Positions 56,876 through 64,000 are shown, counted from the first letter of the stretch. The stretch: DNA of 64,000 nucleotides from Candidatus Omnitrophota bacterium (GCA_016235185.1 JACRLT010000004.1:6303-70302), one strand, 5' to 3'. A program made the numbers and translations. Notes: generated by a model not told the origin, from the letters alone.

Positions 56876-57360
56876 TATTCGTCTTCAGTGTCTGCTTTGA
56901 AGGCAACATGTAGGGCGTCATAGACTTTATCATGAGGGTATCCGCGGCGTAAAAGATATCCATAAAGCCTTGATTTGGCTCGAGCTCGATCAAGATGGCG
57001 CATTTTCTTCAACTTCAACTCGACGATCTCTTTTATCGCATCGGCTTCATTATAATTGGCCGACACATTTTCCAAGGCATCCTCTATTATACCTTTATCA
57101 ATGCCCTTCTTGTTTAATTCGTAACGCAAACGGCTCAAACCCAATTGCCTCTTTACGCGGCTTTCCGCCCACAACTTGGCAAAAAGCACATCATCCAAAA
57201 GGCCTGTTTTTTTCAAAAAACCTATTGTCTCTTCAATGGCCTCCGGGGAGATCTCTTTCTCTTTTAACTTATCCCTTATTTCTTTTTCGCTACGCAGCCT
57301 GAATTTGATCAGACGCAGCGCGCAATTCTTGGCCTTTGATAGATCGGCGGGCCCGTGCAT
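56875..57360 (-). CDS. recX: RecA regulator RecX
   Basis: Binds and restrains RecA filaments. The 161-residue helical protein has three tandem three-helix repeats: ALRLIKFRLRSEKEIRDKLKEK, LDDVLFAKLWAESRVKRQLG and YLLRRGYPHDKVYDAL. It is directly coupled to recA (shared base) as in many bacteria. Confidence 0.92.
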   Translation of the reverse strand: MHGPADLSKAKNCALRLIKFRLRSEKEIRDKLKEKEISPEAIEETIGFLKKTGLLDDVLFAKLWAESRVKRQLGLSRLRYELNKKGIDKGIIEDALENVSANYNEADAIKEIVELKLKKMRHLDRARAKSRLYGYLLRRGYPHDKVYDALHVAFKADTEDE

Positions 57361-58427
57361 TATTTCTTAACAGCCGGCGCATGCGCTTCTGCTAATTTTC
57401 TGGCGTGCTCCTGACGGATCTTCTTGTCGATTTCAGAGGCGAGTTTTGGATTATCCTTCAGGAAAAGTCTGGCTGCGTCCCTTCCCTGGCCAAGTTTCTG
57501 TTCGCCATATAAAACCCAAGCGCCTGACTTCTGCAAGATCCCAAGGTTTACGCCGGTATCAATAAGGTCCGATTCCAAAGCAATGCCTTCAGAATGAAGA
57601 AAATCTACTTCCGTTTCTCTGAAAGGCGGGGCCACTTTGTTTTTGACAACCCGAATACGCACGCGGCTGCCGATGACCTGATCGCCTGCCTTAATATAAC
57701 CGGTCCTTCTTAGATCAAGCCTGACCGATGAATAGAATTTCAGGGCCCGGCCGCCTGTTGTCGTCTCCGGATTGCCGAACATAACACCAATTTTCTCACG
57801 GATCTGGTTTATAAAGATCACACATGTCTTGGATTTAGAGATAGTGCCTGTCAACTTTCTTAAGGCCTGTGACATAAGGCGCGCCTGCAGACCCATGTGG
57901 CTGTCACCCATCTCGCCTTCGATCTCTGCGCGCGGCGTCAATGCAGCCACAGAGTCGATTATGACCAGATCCACGGCATTCGAACGCACCAGTGTTTCTG
58001 CAATTTCCAAAGCCTGCTCGCCTGTATCCGGCTGCGAGATCAAAAGATCGTCTAAATTAACCCCTATCTTCTTGGCATAAGTGGAATCAAAAGCGTGCTC
58101 GGCATCAATAAATGCTGCAACTCCGCCCTGTTTTTGTACCTGGGAAATAATGCTCAAAGTCAGCGTTGTCTTGCCTGAAGCCTCGGGCCCGAATATCTCG
58201 ATCACCCTTCCGCGGGGTATACCGCCAACACCTAAAGCAAGGTCCAAAGAAATAGAGCCTGTAGGGATAACCGGGATATCCGACTTAAAATCCTCGCCCA
58301 ATTTCATAATAGAGCCTTTGCCAAATTGCTTTTCAATTTGAGCCAAGGCCAACTCCAACGCCTTAAGCCTGCTGGAACTCTCTTCTTTTTTACTTAACTC
58401 TTTCTCTTTATTATCTTTATTAACCAT
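57360..58427 (-). CDS. recA: Recombinase RecA
   Basis: DNA strand exchange and SOS coprotease. The 355-residue protein has Walker [43 protein letters not shown] and the L1/L2 loops ([37 protein letters not shown]). The normal length and an own promoter at 58465-58493 suggest it heads this long minus-strand transcript. Confidence 0.98.
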
Positions 58428-58852: not shown

Positions 58853-59170
58853 ATGGATATAAAAAAGCTTTTTTTCATCTCGATCACAATAGTTCTTCTT
58901 TCGGCCAACGCGTGCCTGGCAGGACAGACCACGATTACAGGATCAGCCAGATGCGTCATGCCGGATCTATTTGAATTCAAAACTCAAGGAACCGCACCAG
59001 AGGCGGCCACTGCGCCGGCCGAGCCTGCGATGCCTATCCCTTCAGGAGCTTCAGGTAAATATGAGGTAACAAAAGAGGAAAAACTGATCCAGACCGAAGA
59101 TATGGTGACGGTTACAGACGAAGGATCCGAAATGGCTAAGGCTACGATTTACACGATCTGCGCCAAATGA
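58853..59170 (+). CDS. Small exported protein under c-di-GMP riboswitch
   Basis: A 105-residue protein with a signal peptide (about 1-22, KKLFFISITIVLLSANACLA). The mature part has an Ala/Pro-rich stretch (about 45-63) and a polar C-terminus (EKLIQTEDMVTVTDEG). Two cysteines (CVMP and TICAK) could form a disulfide. Start 58853 follows AGAGGG. Control by a c-di-GMP riboswitch and a position next to a surface-assembly operon suggest a role in attachment or envelope biogenesis; no family is recognised. Confidence 0.8.
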   Translation: MDIKKLFFISITIVLLSANACLAGQTTITGSARCVMPDLFEFKTQGTAPEAATAPAEPAMPIPSGASGKYEVTKEEKLIQTEDMVTVTDEGSEMAKATIYTICAK

Positions 59171-59214
59171 AACAACCTGATTTTGTACCCGCAGGTTCCT
59201 TTAGATACCTCTAA

Positions 59215-59364
59215 CAAAATCCGCCAAAGCATTAGTGGCGGATACAAAATCCGCCAAAGCATTAGTGGCGGATACAAAATCCGCCAAAGCATTAGTGGCG
59301 GATACAAAATCCGCCAAAGCATTAGTGGCGGATACAAAATCCGCCAAAGCATTAGTGGCGGATA
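59215..59364. repeat. Five tandem 30-bp palindromic units
   Basis: Five copies of a 30-bp unit, aaaat-CCGCC-aaagcattagt-GGCGG-atac, with no spacers; the units are identical except the last two bases. Each folds as an ATCCGCC/GGCGGAT hairpin. It follows the exported protein gene. Confidence 0.95.
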
Positions 59365-59383
59365 ACAAAAAGCCCATACGATG

Positions 59384-59440: not shown

Positions 59441-62305
59441 TCATTTTCCCTGGGGTTCCTCAAGAGGAATATTGTAAACGAAAGTAGCGCCTTCGATCAC
59501 CTTGACGGTCTTTGTGATCGGGACCTTGGGGAGATATTTCACAGGCACGGTCTTAAGATCCACCTTCAAGGTGTGCTCTCCGGGCACAAGCTTCCTGAAC
59601 ATATATTCTCCAAAAGAGCTTGTTACCGCCTTTTGATCATTATCTAGAACTATAACTACGGAATTAACCGGCTTTTCACCCGCATCATACTTTCCATTGC
59701 CATCCTTATCCAAAAAGACCAATCCCGATATCTCCGATTGCGTCGTCAACCCAAAATCAAAGCGCTTCAACTTAGCATGCACTATATCTACCTCCCTAGA
59801 CACTGAAGTCGTAGGGGTGTATCCCTTGGGGATAGTTTTTAGATCCAGGCCCAAAGTGGCTTTTTTCCCGGTTAACCCCTCAATTTTATAATATCCCTTT
59901 GCATCAGTAACAGCCTTTTTATCTTGTGACCCAAAGACTTCTACACCGCTGACCCCCTGTTCTTTCGGCTCTCTTGCCCCATTTCCATTTAAATCATAAA
60001 ATACGTACCCATAGAATCCGCCCTTGGCTTGCCATCTAAACCCGGTATCCCACAATAACCTCATGCCCCAGCTCAAATCAAAATCAAAGTGTTTTACCGT
60101 ACCTTCTTTCTCTGCCCAAACATTATCCACGCGGGCCTTCAGATATAATTCGCTGTCAGGGTTGGGCTTGAACGTCACTTCGCCCTCGCCTTCGAGACGA
60201 TCTTCCCCACTCAAGAAGCTTAATTCTGACTCGGTGTCTTGTTCATCCCTGTAAAAAATCCTCAAGTTCGTGTAAAAGGGCGAACGGCCGATCCTATGGT
60301 TATAACTCAAACCATACTCCTGGGCTGTAGGATATGCCCTCTTACGGCTAAACTTGTTATACAACAAATTAAATTCCCTGCGATAATAGCCGTAAATATC
60401 ATACAAGACCCTCATGCTCAACCCCGCCATGATCCTGTTGTTGTTAAAATCCTGCGCAGGAGAGGAAAAATTTTTGGATTTGCTGTTTTGATAAGTCAAA
60501 TACGTGCTTAACTTTCTGAAGATAAATATCTTTTTTCTGAAAACTATCTCCTTGGTTTCAACTACAGAAGGCGACACAGACCCGATCTGATCATCCATCG
60601 TATAACCTAATTCAAATTCCGTCTGCGGATCCGCATACCAATTTACACGCGTGACAGAATTATAATTCGGTGTCCCGGGTTTGTCAGGATTAAAAAATAC
60701 TTTATCCAAAGATCTGGAGAAAGAGTTAAAGATCGCCACATCCTGTGTGGGCCGGTAATTTATGGTCATAGTCTGGTTTTGGGAACCGCCTGCCGGCTCG
60801 CCTCCAAGCAAAGACGCAAAATGCTCGTTATTATCTGTCGTAGAAACGCCAAGCCGAAATTTTGGCAATGTAAAACTGCTCTGCGTCATATACGATATAT
60901 TTTTAGTGTGGTCATACGCCATCTCTGAACCTACATCAAAAAGGCCCAGGTGATAATTCATCCCGAAACCCGATGTATCGCTTGTCAAAACAGGTTCTGA
61001 CCGCTCCGGCCCATATGAATGGGTATAGAACGTCTTAAAATTGGCAAATTTGTTGGGCCTATAGTTCAAGCCAACCCCTTCCAGCCATGCCTGTTTCGTC
61101 TTACTCAACCCTGAAGCAGCCGGCAATTGCGTAAAGCCTCCGGCCGGAAGAGCACCCTTAAATGTCGTGTATTCTAATTTCCTATCGGACATCGGAGCGC
61201 TCAACAAGATCCCGCGCAGATCAGATGCAGGAAAGCCAAATGAACTAAATCCCGGCGAAAAATCAAAACCGCGGATCGTAATATCTTTAAACTGGTCGTA
61301 GTGGCCGTTGGTTATCCCCATCCTCAAATTCGAGACACTATAGTTACCTAATGGTGTTCGGTTCGCCTGGACAGCAGAATCAAAATTGCCGAATGGTGTT
61401 TCTCCGATAATGGAAGAACTGTAGGCTAAAGAGTGGGTTATGCGGCTTAGGTCCCCAAAGCCCCTGCCTGTGTAAAAGCTGTCTCCGATAATGGAATAAC
61501 TCAACTTAAAAGACTCGGGACGCTGTGCCTCTATAAAACGCTCCTGATATTCCTTCAAAAGCCGCATGGCAAACTTTCTCGGCCCTATCAGGAACCTGAA
61601 AGTCTTTCGCCCCTTATTATCCCATACATGCATATAAGTTGTACCCAGGTCCTGCGGCTCAACTAACAACTCATCCGGCCCAAGGCGCGAAACTTTCAGC
61701 ATATTTGGTTGTGTAACCAGGAACCTGGAAAGATTGTTACCCTTAAACCTCAAGCGCTCACCTATGTTGGTATCAATATCCAGCGTATCTTTGCCTTCAA
61801 GCGCGCTATCTACGTCAATCACAACTTCTTCAACAGGCTCCTCTTGAGGTGTCTTTGTTTGAGTTGGAAACTGAACCGTTGTAACTCTGACCTGTTTTTC
61901 AGGACGCTGTGCTGACTTTTGAGCCAGAATCGCCTGCTCAAGTTCTTTTTGTTCAGATACCGGCCCCAGCATCTCTAAAGATTTTTGCGCGCTGTTCAAA
62001 AGCAAATTTACCGATGATATTTTTTTTACCAATGAATCTCCCTCGTCAAGGGCGCCTGTCTTCTTACTCCGGACTTCAATTGTGCTTATAAATTCCTTGG
62101 CGACGACAGACTCGGGATCAGCCATAAGTGCTTTTTTAAACTCTGTGAGTGCTTCGGGATATTTTTCTAGATTGTAATAAGCAATTCCTTTTTCACATAA
62201 AAAATCCGCTATCTGGGGGGAGACAGCGGCCTGTGCAAATGATGGCGGTATAATAAAATTGAAACTTAATAAAATAATTAAATAAGTTGATAAAATTTTT
62301 TTCAT
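59441..62305 (-). CDS. Usher-like outer-membrane protein with CnaB/SdrD-type tail
   Basis: A 954-residue exported protein. In order: signal peptide (1-27); TPR-like pair (about 30-85); a charged coiled linker; a small N-domain like those of pilus secretins (about 180-240, RFKGNNLSRFLVTQPNMLKV, DLGTTYMHVWD); a long aromatic-rich beta region (about 260-760) with alternating pattern of a large outer-membrane barrel; and two CnaB/SdrD-like domains (764-856 and 857-954, GYVFYDLNGNGAREP and GLVFLDKDGNGKYD with DxNGN calcium-type loops). Next to a chaperone and a subunit gene, an usher or assembly-platform role is inferred; sequence is not that of FimD/PapC. Confidence 0.7.
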   Translation of the reverse strand: MKKILSTYLIILLSFNFIIPPSFAQAAVSPQIADFLCEKGIAYYNLEKYPEALTEFKKALMADPESVVAKEFISTIEVRSKKTGALDEGDSLVKKISSVNLLLNSAQKSLEMLGPVSEQKELEQAILAQKSAQRPEKQVRVTTVQFPTQTKTPQEEPVEEVVIDVDSALEGKDTLDIDTNIGERLRFKGNNLSRFLVTQPNMLKVSRLGPDELLVEPQDLGTTYMHVWDNKGRKTFRFLIGPRKFAMRLLKEYQERFIEAQRPESFKLSYSIIGDSFYTGRGFGDLSRITHSLAYSSSIIGETPFGNFDSAVQANRTPLGNYSVSNLRMGITNGHYDQFKDITIRGFDFSPGFSSFGFPASDLRGILLSAPMSDRKLEYTTFKGALPAGGFTQLPAASGLSKTKQAWLEGVGLNYRPNKFANFKTFYTHSYGPERSEPVLTSDTSGFGMNYHLGLFDVGSEMAYDHTKNISYMTQSSFTLPKFRLGVSTTDNNEHFASLLGGEPAGGSQNQTMTINYRPTQDVAIFNSFSRSLDKVFFNPDKPGTPNYNSVTRVNWYADPQTEFELGYTMDDQIGSVSPSVVETKEIVFRKKIFIFRKLSTYLTYQNSKSKNFSSPAQDFNNNRIMAGLSMRVLYDIYGYYRREFNLLYNKFSRKRAYPTAQEYGLSYNHRIGRSPFYTNLRIFYRDEQDTESELSFLSGEDRLEGEGEVTFKPNPDSELYLKARVDNVWAEKEGTVKHFDFDLSWGMRLLWDTGFRWQAKGGFYGYVFYDLNGNGAREPKEQGVSGVEVFGSQDKKAVTDAKGYYKIEGLTGKKATLGLDLKTIPKGYTPTTSVSREVDIVHAKLKRFDFGLTTQSEISGLVFLDKDGNGKYDAGEKPVNSVVIVLDNDQKAVTSSFGEYMFRKLVPGEHTLKVDLKTVPVKYLPKVPITKTVKVIEGATFVYNIPLEEPQGK

Positions 62306-62313
62306 ATGCCTTT

Positions 62314-63162
62314 TTAATCTTTTATTTTTAGCGGACCTAATACGCCTGACGCGGAAACATTGAAGCTTGCTTCTTTGATAATATTGCCACCATTTTCAAA
62401 CTCAATTGTCAACAAAAGATCATAGTCTCCGGCCTTAAGATCCACTGACTTTGCCGTGGATTCCAGGCTGGCCTTGTCATGCGCCAAGGTATAAACTTCA
62501 TCAAAAACGCCCCGCGCAAAAACCATCCCATAGCTATCGATCACATCAAAAGTCCCTTTTGCCGTAATATCGGTATTGCCGGTATTTACAAAATCAGCGG
62601 CCACAACAAGATTATTTAACTTCTCCGTAGCAGCAAGATTTTTTATCTCGGCAGTCTTCTGTATTGTGCCCTCTGGCTCAATATAAAAAAGCGCCCCCAG
62701 GCGATTCAATACCTTGACCATCACATTATTTCCTTTTTCATCTACGGCCGGCATTTCTCCTCCGCCGGTTTCAAAAAACATAACGGCATAATTCCCGCCT
62801 TTTGCATCTTTAGGCACAGAAACTGTATAGCGTACCATCTGTATGCCCCCGACAGGGACCGTAAAATCAGCCGGATAAAACGTGATCCAGTTTGAAGCCG
62901 ACAATGCCGTCGTGCCCTTTGGCATAAATTCTTTGCCGCCGTCCTGCGCGTTGTAAACCCAATCCTCCAGATAGACTTTTACGGCTGCGGGATCTTTTCC
63001 GTTATTTTCCACCTTGACCTCGCCGCTAGCATAACTGCCTGGAGCAACGGACAATCTGATCTTTGGCTTATCGATACGGATACCGGCAAAGGCTGGGACC
63101 AAAAAAAACATGTTAATGATAAAAAAGCATAAGGCCGAAATTAAAATTTTAGTTTTGTTCAT
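62314..63162 (-). CDS. Periplasmic Ig-like chaperone (PapD/DUF916-like)
   Basis: A 282-residue exported protein with a signal peptide (about 1-26). The first domain follows the pilus-chaperone or DUF916 pattern: KPKIRLSVAPGSYASGEVKV, NWITFYPADFTVPVGG and VRYTVSVPKDAKGGNYAVMFF. A second Ig-like domain (about 165-260) follows. There is no C-terminal membrane helix, unlike Gram-positive DUF916 proteins, so it is probably soluble in the periplasm. It lies 8 bp before the usher-like gene and after the subunit gene. Confidence 0.72.
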   Translation of the reverse strand: MNKTKILISALCFFIINMFFLVPAFAGIRIDKPKIRLSVAPGSYASGEVKVENNGKDPAAVKVYLEDWVYNAQDGGKEFMPKGTTALSASNWITFYPADFTVPVGGIQMVRYTVSVPKDAKGGNYAVMFFETGGGEMPAVDEKGNNVMVKVLNRLGALFYIEPEGTIQKTAEIKNLAATEKLNNLVVAADFVNTGNTDITAKGTFDVIDSYGMVFARGVFDEVYTLAHDKASLESTAKSVDLKAGDYDLLLTIEFENGGNIIKEASFNVSASGVLGPLKIKD

Positions 63163-63225
63163 AGAAAAAAATTAAATTAGTTCCCGCTGACGCGGGATTT
63201 CACTGAAGTAAAATTTTGGTGTTCA

Positions 63226-63278
63226 AAATTTTTTAGGTGCCGGCATATCTTTAAAACATACCGGCACCTAAAAAATTT
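63226..63278 (-). other. 18-bp perfect inverted repeat between subunit and chaperone genes
   Basis: 63226-63243 (AAATTTTTTAGGTGCCGG) pairs perfectly with 63261-63278 around a 17-base loop. There is no separate U-tract on the minus strand beyond the stem, so partial termination or 3'-end protection of the subunit mRNA is more likely than full termination. Confidence 0.7.
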
Positions 63279-63288
63279 AGCCGTAACA

Positions 63289-64000
63289 TTAATTAAGCGT
63301 TAATGTAAACGTAATGGTACCTGAATACGCGCCTGACACCTGATCCGGCGTAACAGGCTTCCACGAAGCAAATGTCTGCTTCGTTCCCTGGCCTGATGTT
63401 CCATTAATACCTAACGACCAGTTGGAAGGCTTGGTATCGCCTGCAAGAGGGCCAGAGATAGCCACAATTGCTCTGACAATCCTGCCCAAACCGCTATTAT
63501 CGCTCTGATACACAAGCTGCTCTGTCGTACCGGTTGTGCTGGTAGCAGCCACAACAGGGCCGAGAAAAGCTGATCCCGGAGGAGCTCCTTGTATAACACC
63601 GCCTAACAGATCCTGCCACTGATATTCAGGAACAAGAAATACAGCCTCATTCGGCATCAAAGCACCAGACGGACCTACTAATTGCTGCCCCTTTTCGGTA
63701 ATCTTATATCTGCGGCCAGACGTAGATGCGATCATTAAAACATAATAAAAGTAGCGGCCTCGCATAAATAAGAATTGACCGTATGTAGGGCTTGCTGGAT
63801 TAGTATCATACACTGGACTCAAGTTTCCAAAGTCAAACGAAGGCGACGCTGAAACATCAACCCCTTGATTAAAAGGACTGATTGCTGGATTAAACGTCGC
63901 GGACTCCATCTGTTTAACAACTTTTAAGGAAAACTCAAGAAACTGCGGGACTTGTGCCGAAGCCGGGCCGCTCGGGCCAACTTGCGATGTCTGTGCCAAT
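63289..64000 (-). CDS. Secreted beta-rich surface subunit (partial)
   Basis: The frame runs off the right edge; 236 or more residues are visible. The sequence AQTSQVGPSGPASAQVPQ at the edge looks like the region just after signal-peptide cleavage. The protein is beta-rich, low in charge, rich in Gly/Ser/Thr/Ala, and ends in an alternating strand (SGAYSGTITFTLTLN), as in fimbrial and spore-coat-U-type subunits whose last strand takes part in assembly. It is probably the structural substrate of the chaperone and usher-like proteins downstream. Confidence 0.6.
   Translation of the reverse strand, partial: LAQTSQVGPSGPASAQVPQFLEFSLKVVKQMESATFNPAISPFNQGVDVSASPSFDFGNLSPVYDTNPASPTYGQFLFMRGRYFYYVLMIASTSGRRYKITEKGQQLVGPSGALMPNEAVFLVPEYQWQDLLGGVIQGAPPGSAFLGPVVAATSTTGTTEQLVYQSDNSGLGRIVRAIVAISGPLAGDTKPSNWSLGINGTSGQGTKQTFASWKPVTPDQVSGAYSGTITFTLTLN

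Follow-up and report, generated by a model that had tools for sequence, protein, structure and literature searches.

A probable, strongly diverged chaperone-usher pathway of the non-classical kind in Candidatus Omnitrophota

The stretch of DNA analysed here (the window, 64,000 nucleotides) is part of a 99-kb contig in the 1.79-Mb, 92% complete genome of a Candidatus Omnitrophota bacterium. A locus of five genes spans its right edge, with most of them inside the window. Four form an operon on the minus strand, in the order 485-aa secreted protein, 259-aa subunit, 282-aa periplasmic chaperone and 954-aa outer-membrane protein; the features described below within and between these genes lie on the same strand. 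The gene for the 485-aa protein is located just to the right of the window edge. The pilin-like subunit occupies 63289–64000, with its gene start ~70 bp beyond the window, as read from the ORF and the flank sequence, the two-domain Ig-type chaperone (P0002) occupies 62314–63162 and the usher-like protein (P0001) occupies 59441–62305. The first-pass annotation had placed three minus-strand ORFs at these positions, the subunit gene running from 63289 past the window end; it had not included the 485-aa gene outside the window and had missed a convergent plus-strand gene (58853–59170) for a small secreted protein, 105 aa in length. Both the chaperone and the subunit family have a single member in this genome. 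Upstream of the 485-aa gene the neighbours are unrelated, the first of them likely encoding a tRNA methylthiotransferase as judged from its sequence. A PADLOC search gave no match. A type IV pilin-like gene cluster carrying the N-methylation motif (L002:17557-19999) is found upstream of the operon, at a distance of ~6 kb.

The subunit and chaperone genes are separated by a hairpin (63226–63278) located 3' of the subunit gene. The hairpin had already been described, at a length of 18 bp; it is real, but the folding calculation gives about 25 paired bases. The intergenic stretch folds with −48.5 kcal/mol (z −7.35) and none of 200 shuffled sequences folded as well. On the other side of the operon, a 30-bp unit is repeated in tandem 5.2 times, with 99% matches, at 59214–59370; the array separates the 3' end of the usher gene from that of the small convergent gene.

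Taken alone, the chaperone of the window matched no family convincingly in Pfam. The profile of its family, however, matched two structures when searched against the PDB by hmmsearch, namely EcpB (E 3.8e-4) and EfmWxLIP1 (E 2.5e-4). Profile-profile comparison by hhalign gave 86% (E 5e-6) with EcpB and 84% (E 8e-6) with the eight PapD-type chaperones of K-12, while 15 shuffled and two reversed controls reached E values of 0.03 or worse. By this profile evidence the chaperone is homologous to the PapD-type chaperones with two Ig domains and a G1 donor strand, in line with its earlier description as an Ig-like chaperone. The putative G1 strand corresponds to residues 147–155 (62698–62724), an alternating hydrophobic stretch identified from the family alignment and from the alignment with EcpB. 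All 35 family members have a hydrophobic residue at each of positions 149, 151 and 155, and position 153 is variable; together these four align with A111, A113, A115 and I117 of EcpB, whose role as donor residues has been probed by mutation (PMC4654587). Moreover, Arg154 is invariant in the 35 members and aligned with R116 of EcpB. In our reading of the alignment, there is no arginine at the place of the EcpB anchor residue Arg89. Weak matches to WxLIP_PGBD were found in 17 of the 35 family members.

The 954-aa protein begins with a signal peptide (approximately residues 1–25, 62231–62305), judged from its hydrophobic N-terminus. Pfam recognizes in it one TPR module (residues 30–83, 62057–62218; also visible in the AlphaFold2 model), a weak T2SS-T3SS_pil_N-like, that is secretin-type, N-domain (residues 160–241, 61583–61828; E 4e-4) and two SdrD_B domains, which form C-terminal domain 1 (59744–60022) and C-terminal domain 2 (59456–59734). 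This domain content agrees with what had been proposed. All 29 relatives compared have SdrD_B, and 25 of them have pil_N, for which the best E value is 3.5e-15. The deepest-branching relatives have N-termini of 34–80 aa, with no room for the TPR, and C-terminal domains of ~300 aa as compared to 200.

A large barrel had been expected of this protein, and the AlphaFold2 model of the protein alone predicts one, with about 26 barrel-type strands over residues 267–753 (60047–61507; mean pLDDT 79.7, pTM 0.56). The longest barrel loop in the model has 15 aa, and loops above about 20 aa are found in none of 58 ushers, so that none would be able to hold a plug. When the model was compared with the PDB by Foldseek, the best 14 matches were all FimD or PapC (E 1.6e-19 to 9e-10), followed by BtuB-type receptors at 1e-8. 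The TM-scores are low (best 0.47, for the pore, with an rmsd of 13 Å), and the likeness to ushers is therefore one of local structure and order, not of good superposition.

Profile comparison supports the same relationship in parts of the chain. Using hhalign, C-terminal domain 1 matches the CTD1 of ushers (45%, E 2e-4). A segment of the barrel ahead of the usual plug site (residues 330–372, 61190–61318) matches the corresponding β5–β6 segment of FimD-type ushers (18%, E 1.3e-3); off-target control domains gave mostly 4% or less. The barrel alone gave nothing above control level against FimD-type ushers apart from this short segment. The whole protein reached 28% against the K-12 ushers, and the known pair of K-12 ushers and EcpC scored lower, at 14.6%. 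The match needed an alignment of seven ushers, since a single FimD gave nothing above control, and nor did EcpC alone. The N-domain shows no likeness to PapC_N (0.4% by hhalign). It should be noted that family searches with classical definitions return nothing: PF00577 is absent from the 954-aa protein and from the families listed for its 29 relatives, the TcfC E-set PF16967 and CooC_C PF15976 are not among the families listed for the relatives (EcpC serving as positive control), no secretin domain is among the families listed for the protein and the 29 relatives, and neither PF00577 nor PF16967 was found in any of 117 sampled Omnitrophota genomes, with E. coli as positive control. The apparently new traits are thus, as far as models and profiles can tell, the predicted 26-strand barrel, the absence of a plug in 58 ushers and of any usher Pfam match, together with a TPR and a secretin-type N-domain in place of PapC_N.

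The subunit had been called secreted, and its full 259-aa form has a signal peptide. A putative N-terminal donor strand (PASAQVPQF, 63940–63966) and a C-terminal edge strand, GAYSGTITFTLTLN (63292–63333), were recognized by their strand motifs; in most subunits of the family, the sequence opens with a motif of the kind TVSVNATVP and closes with GxYSGTVTxTL. The subunit family alone gave noise against Pfam and the PDB, the latter mainly from the signal peptide, and comparison with EcpA gave nothing useful. The 485-aa protein was more informative. The first-pass annotation had suggested looking for further subunits to the right of the window, and this gene is indeed a three-domain, pilin-like one: its three repeats match each other (hhalign 99%), and comparison with the subunit gives about 70% for two of them. 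Searched against the PDB, the profile of the three-domain family found no structures other than CfaB/CfaE fusions (E 1.9e-7 to 4e-4), and no WxL family was among the pilin matches. An AlphaFold2 model of an ortholog shows strand-rich domains (pLDDT 85.9), and its top four PDB matches are CfaB/CfaE donor-strand fusions (best E 1.7e-15). In this model, a long strand follows domains one and two and none follows the last; the strand pairing is read from the order of these elements. The 485-aa protein thus looks like three pilin domains linked beforehand by strand complementation, and since no G strand follows the last domain, it would fit a tip or starter position. By homology to the three-domain protein and by its strand motifs, the subunit of the window is probably a pilin with an incomplete Ig fold.

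The small convergent gene is present downstream of the usher gene in 32 of 56 related loci. In many relatives, the product consists of a signal peptide, a donor-strand-like motif and a charged low-complexity region. The donor-strand score of the window copy is not above that of shuffled sequences. Our guess is that the small protein may end or anchor the chain.

To place the locus in the phylum, 237 Omnitrophota genomes were sampled, and a strong usher match (best E below 1e-30; weaker matches are mostly TPR or SdrD_B parts alone) was found in 65 of them. About 60 related loci were retrieved and their neighbours counted, the linkage figures being taken from the 50 with at least 4.5 kb of upstream sequence. 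The chaperone lies beside the usher gene in 49 of these 50, and at least one pilin-like gene in all 50, so the three-gene block anticipated in other Omnitrophota is conserved. A contig scan with one peptide pattern, derived from a closer set of ushers and limited in reach to what that single pattern detects, added 30 further loci, among them one in Candidatus Velamenicoccus archaeovorus LiM; all are titled Omnitrophota or relatives with one exception, labelled "uncultured bacterium". A recA-like gene (57360–58427) adjoins the operon in the nearest relatives (L033-L036, L038), which suggests vertical inheritance of the operon among them. In one retrieved chaperone gene (L078:7224-8123), a stretch of masked bases translates as X.

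Three further proteins of ~900 aa (L040:1665-4358, L050:14423-17206 and L088:15246-18026) scored with our usher HMM and were rejected, as they have only the N-terminal TPR in common with the clean usher profile, and these neighbours were excluded from the usher counts. They end in Phe like many barrels, and the signal-plus-TPR module common to them and the usher matches at 97.9% over 63 columns. A similar N-terminal match occurs at G000:C14:14182-14400, and such matches are common across the phylum.

At four loci (G167, G159, G029 and G085), a gene beside the operon encodes a fusion of a GH26 glycosidase with a C-terminal pilin domain (L055:6763-8277, L059:3866-5377, L083:11424-12890 and L080:11066-12595). 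These genes encode about 500 aa with a complete GH26 domain, whose match to endoglucanase H (2bv9) has an E value of 7e-37. Two acids that we take to be catalytic lie in the motifs HE and EFA, and both motifs are invariant in the fusions. GH26 proteins devoid of a pilin domain are present in other Omnitrophota. In the chaperone-usher pathway it is usual for tip subunits to have two domains, the C-terminal one being a pilin domain, and the sequences of the fusions suggest an enzyme-tipped pilus as a candidate. A glycosidase-bearing tip subunit was not found in our literature search of open papers at title and abstract level.

Given gene conservation, profile homology and predicted folds, we propose, with a probability of roughly 0.86, that the operon encodes a homologous but strongly diverged chaperone-usher pathway of the non-classical (alternative, class 5-like) kind. 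Several features are common to the locus and the alternative (class 5 or alpha) pili CFA/I (CfaA-B-C-E) and ECP (EcpA-B-C-D), namely the pilin fold and the in-line donor-strand arrangement and, for ECP, the EcpB-like chaperone whose donor strand contains a conserved Arg and a CarboxypepD_reg-type domain at the C-terminus of the usher, as in EcpC. The Omnitrophota usher has neither the TcfC E-set, which spans residues 283–350 in EcpC, nor CooC_C; unlike alternative ushers, it ends in two or three C-terminal domains, with the TPR and the secretin-type N-domain ahead; no arginine of the chaperone aligns with Arg89, the carboxylate anchor of EcpB; and three pilin domains are already fused in one gene, which sets the system apart from alternative pili. 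FimD/PapC systems have in common with it the large barrel, two C-terminal domains with CTD1 homology, the gene order subunit-chaperone-usher and a hairpin after the subunit gene. They differ in possessing PF00577, PapC_N and PapC_C matches and a plug, and their barrel has 24 strands, whereas 26 are counted here, from one predicted model. Because defining features of both families are lacking, we file this usher under neither the classical nor the alternative one. The T2SS-T3SS_pil_N domain ahead of the membrane part is also seen in type II and Tad-type secretins (CpaC, RcpA), from which the protein differs in having no secretin match and a membrane part predicted as a single-chain barrel rather than an oligomeric one.

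The first-pass annotation had rightly seen chaperone-usher logic in the operon, in view of the predicted barrel, the homologous chaperone and the linked genes, and none of the three outcomes it had named as refuting was seen, but it had attributed this logic to unrelated parts. Independent evolution of such logic would account for the lack of an usher Pfam match and of a plug, for the secretin-type N-domain and for the C-terminal pair having SdrD_B as its best Pfam assignment. We consider it improbable, as the chaperone, the pilin domains, CTD1 and the barrel segment are all homologous by profile to known chaperone-usher parts and occupy the same relative positions, and ushers account for all 14 of the top structural matches. 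The CnaB/SdrD pair, presented as a foreign replacement, sits at the place of CTD1/CTD2 of FimD and matches CTD1 specifically. The N-terminal TPR and secretin-type N-domain, unrelated to PapC_N by the hhalign comparison, are the only part for which that description holds.

A system for surface-layer or wall-protein display, in which a WxLIP-type chaperone-like partner would serve a coat of subunits and the barrel would act as exporter or anchor, appears slightly less probable still. The chaperone profile is about as close to EfmWxLIP1 of the Gram-positive WxL/WxLIP systems as to EcpB, Arg strand included, and the weak WxLIP_PGBD matches described above point the same way. Moreover, a cultured relative has been described as a coated coccus (PMC10066038). 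However, the matches of the pilin side are to class 5 pilins and those of the barrel to ushers. WxL systems, to our knowledge, are monoderm and their clusters possess neither an outer membrane nor an usher-like barrel. The WxLIP of Gram-positive bacteria also differs in its described role, which is to bind WxL proteins and to connect the bacterial surface with that of the host (PMC10599100). A reading of the 954-aa protein as an ordinary barrel receptor or an MSCRAMM-like adhesin that neighbours the chaperone and its client by chance is, in our view, very unlikely. SdrD_B domains do occur in adhesins, and TonB-type receptors also match the barrel, but the E value of the best usher match is some eleven orders of magnitude better than that of the best receptor match, the sequence shows neither a TonB plug nor a cell-wall anchor, and linkage to the chaperone and pilins is nearly complete over the phylum.

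Returning to a diverged chaperone-usher pathway, the known logic of such systems fits the operon gene by gene (PMC8410936, PMC4654587), and we infer strand exchange, fibre formation and the roles of the N-domain and the small protein. The pilin-like subunits would be exported by Sec. The chaperone would then capture each of them by lending its G1 strand, flanked by Arg154, and hand it to the 954-aa usher. In the periplasm, the usher would act through its secretin-type N-domain and CTD1/CTD2. The N-terminal strand of the next subunit would displace that of the chaperone, and the fibre would exit via the barrel. As both the plug and PapC_N are absent, gating and recruitment must differ from those of FimD; by its position, the N-domain/TPR region is a candidate for both roles, gate and recruiter.

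A further, doubtful extension, which we hold to be rather less likely than not to be borne out as a whole, is that the Omnitrophota proteins represent an early-branching third kind of usher, plugless, with 26 strands and gated by a secretin-type N-domain, and mixing alternative and classical features; some host-dependent Omnitrophota might then carry active GH26 on the pilus, and the small donor-strand protein might serve as chain terminator.

In the literature searched, we found no report of chaperone-usher pili in Omnitrophota, and a phylum-wide study describes type IVa and Tad pili, leaving ushers or fimbriae unmentioned (PMC10066038). A plugless usher would offer a natural test of the purpose of the plug. 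Moreover, the classical chaperone set of K-12 scores only 1.8% against EcpB, and the Omnitrophota chaperone, which is close to both the classical (84%) and the alternative (86%) members, may help to join these branches of the pathway. Omnitrophota are a little-known group, often dependent on hosts. Since they are inferred to live by attachment to other cells and predation on them, an adhesive organelle of this kind is a direct candidate for host contact, and the glycosidase-pilin fusion, if true, would make the pilus an enzymatic tool.
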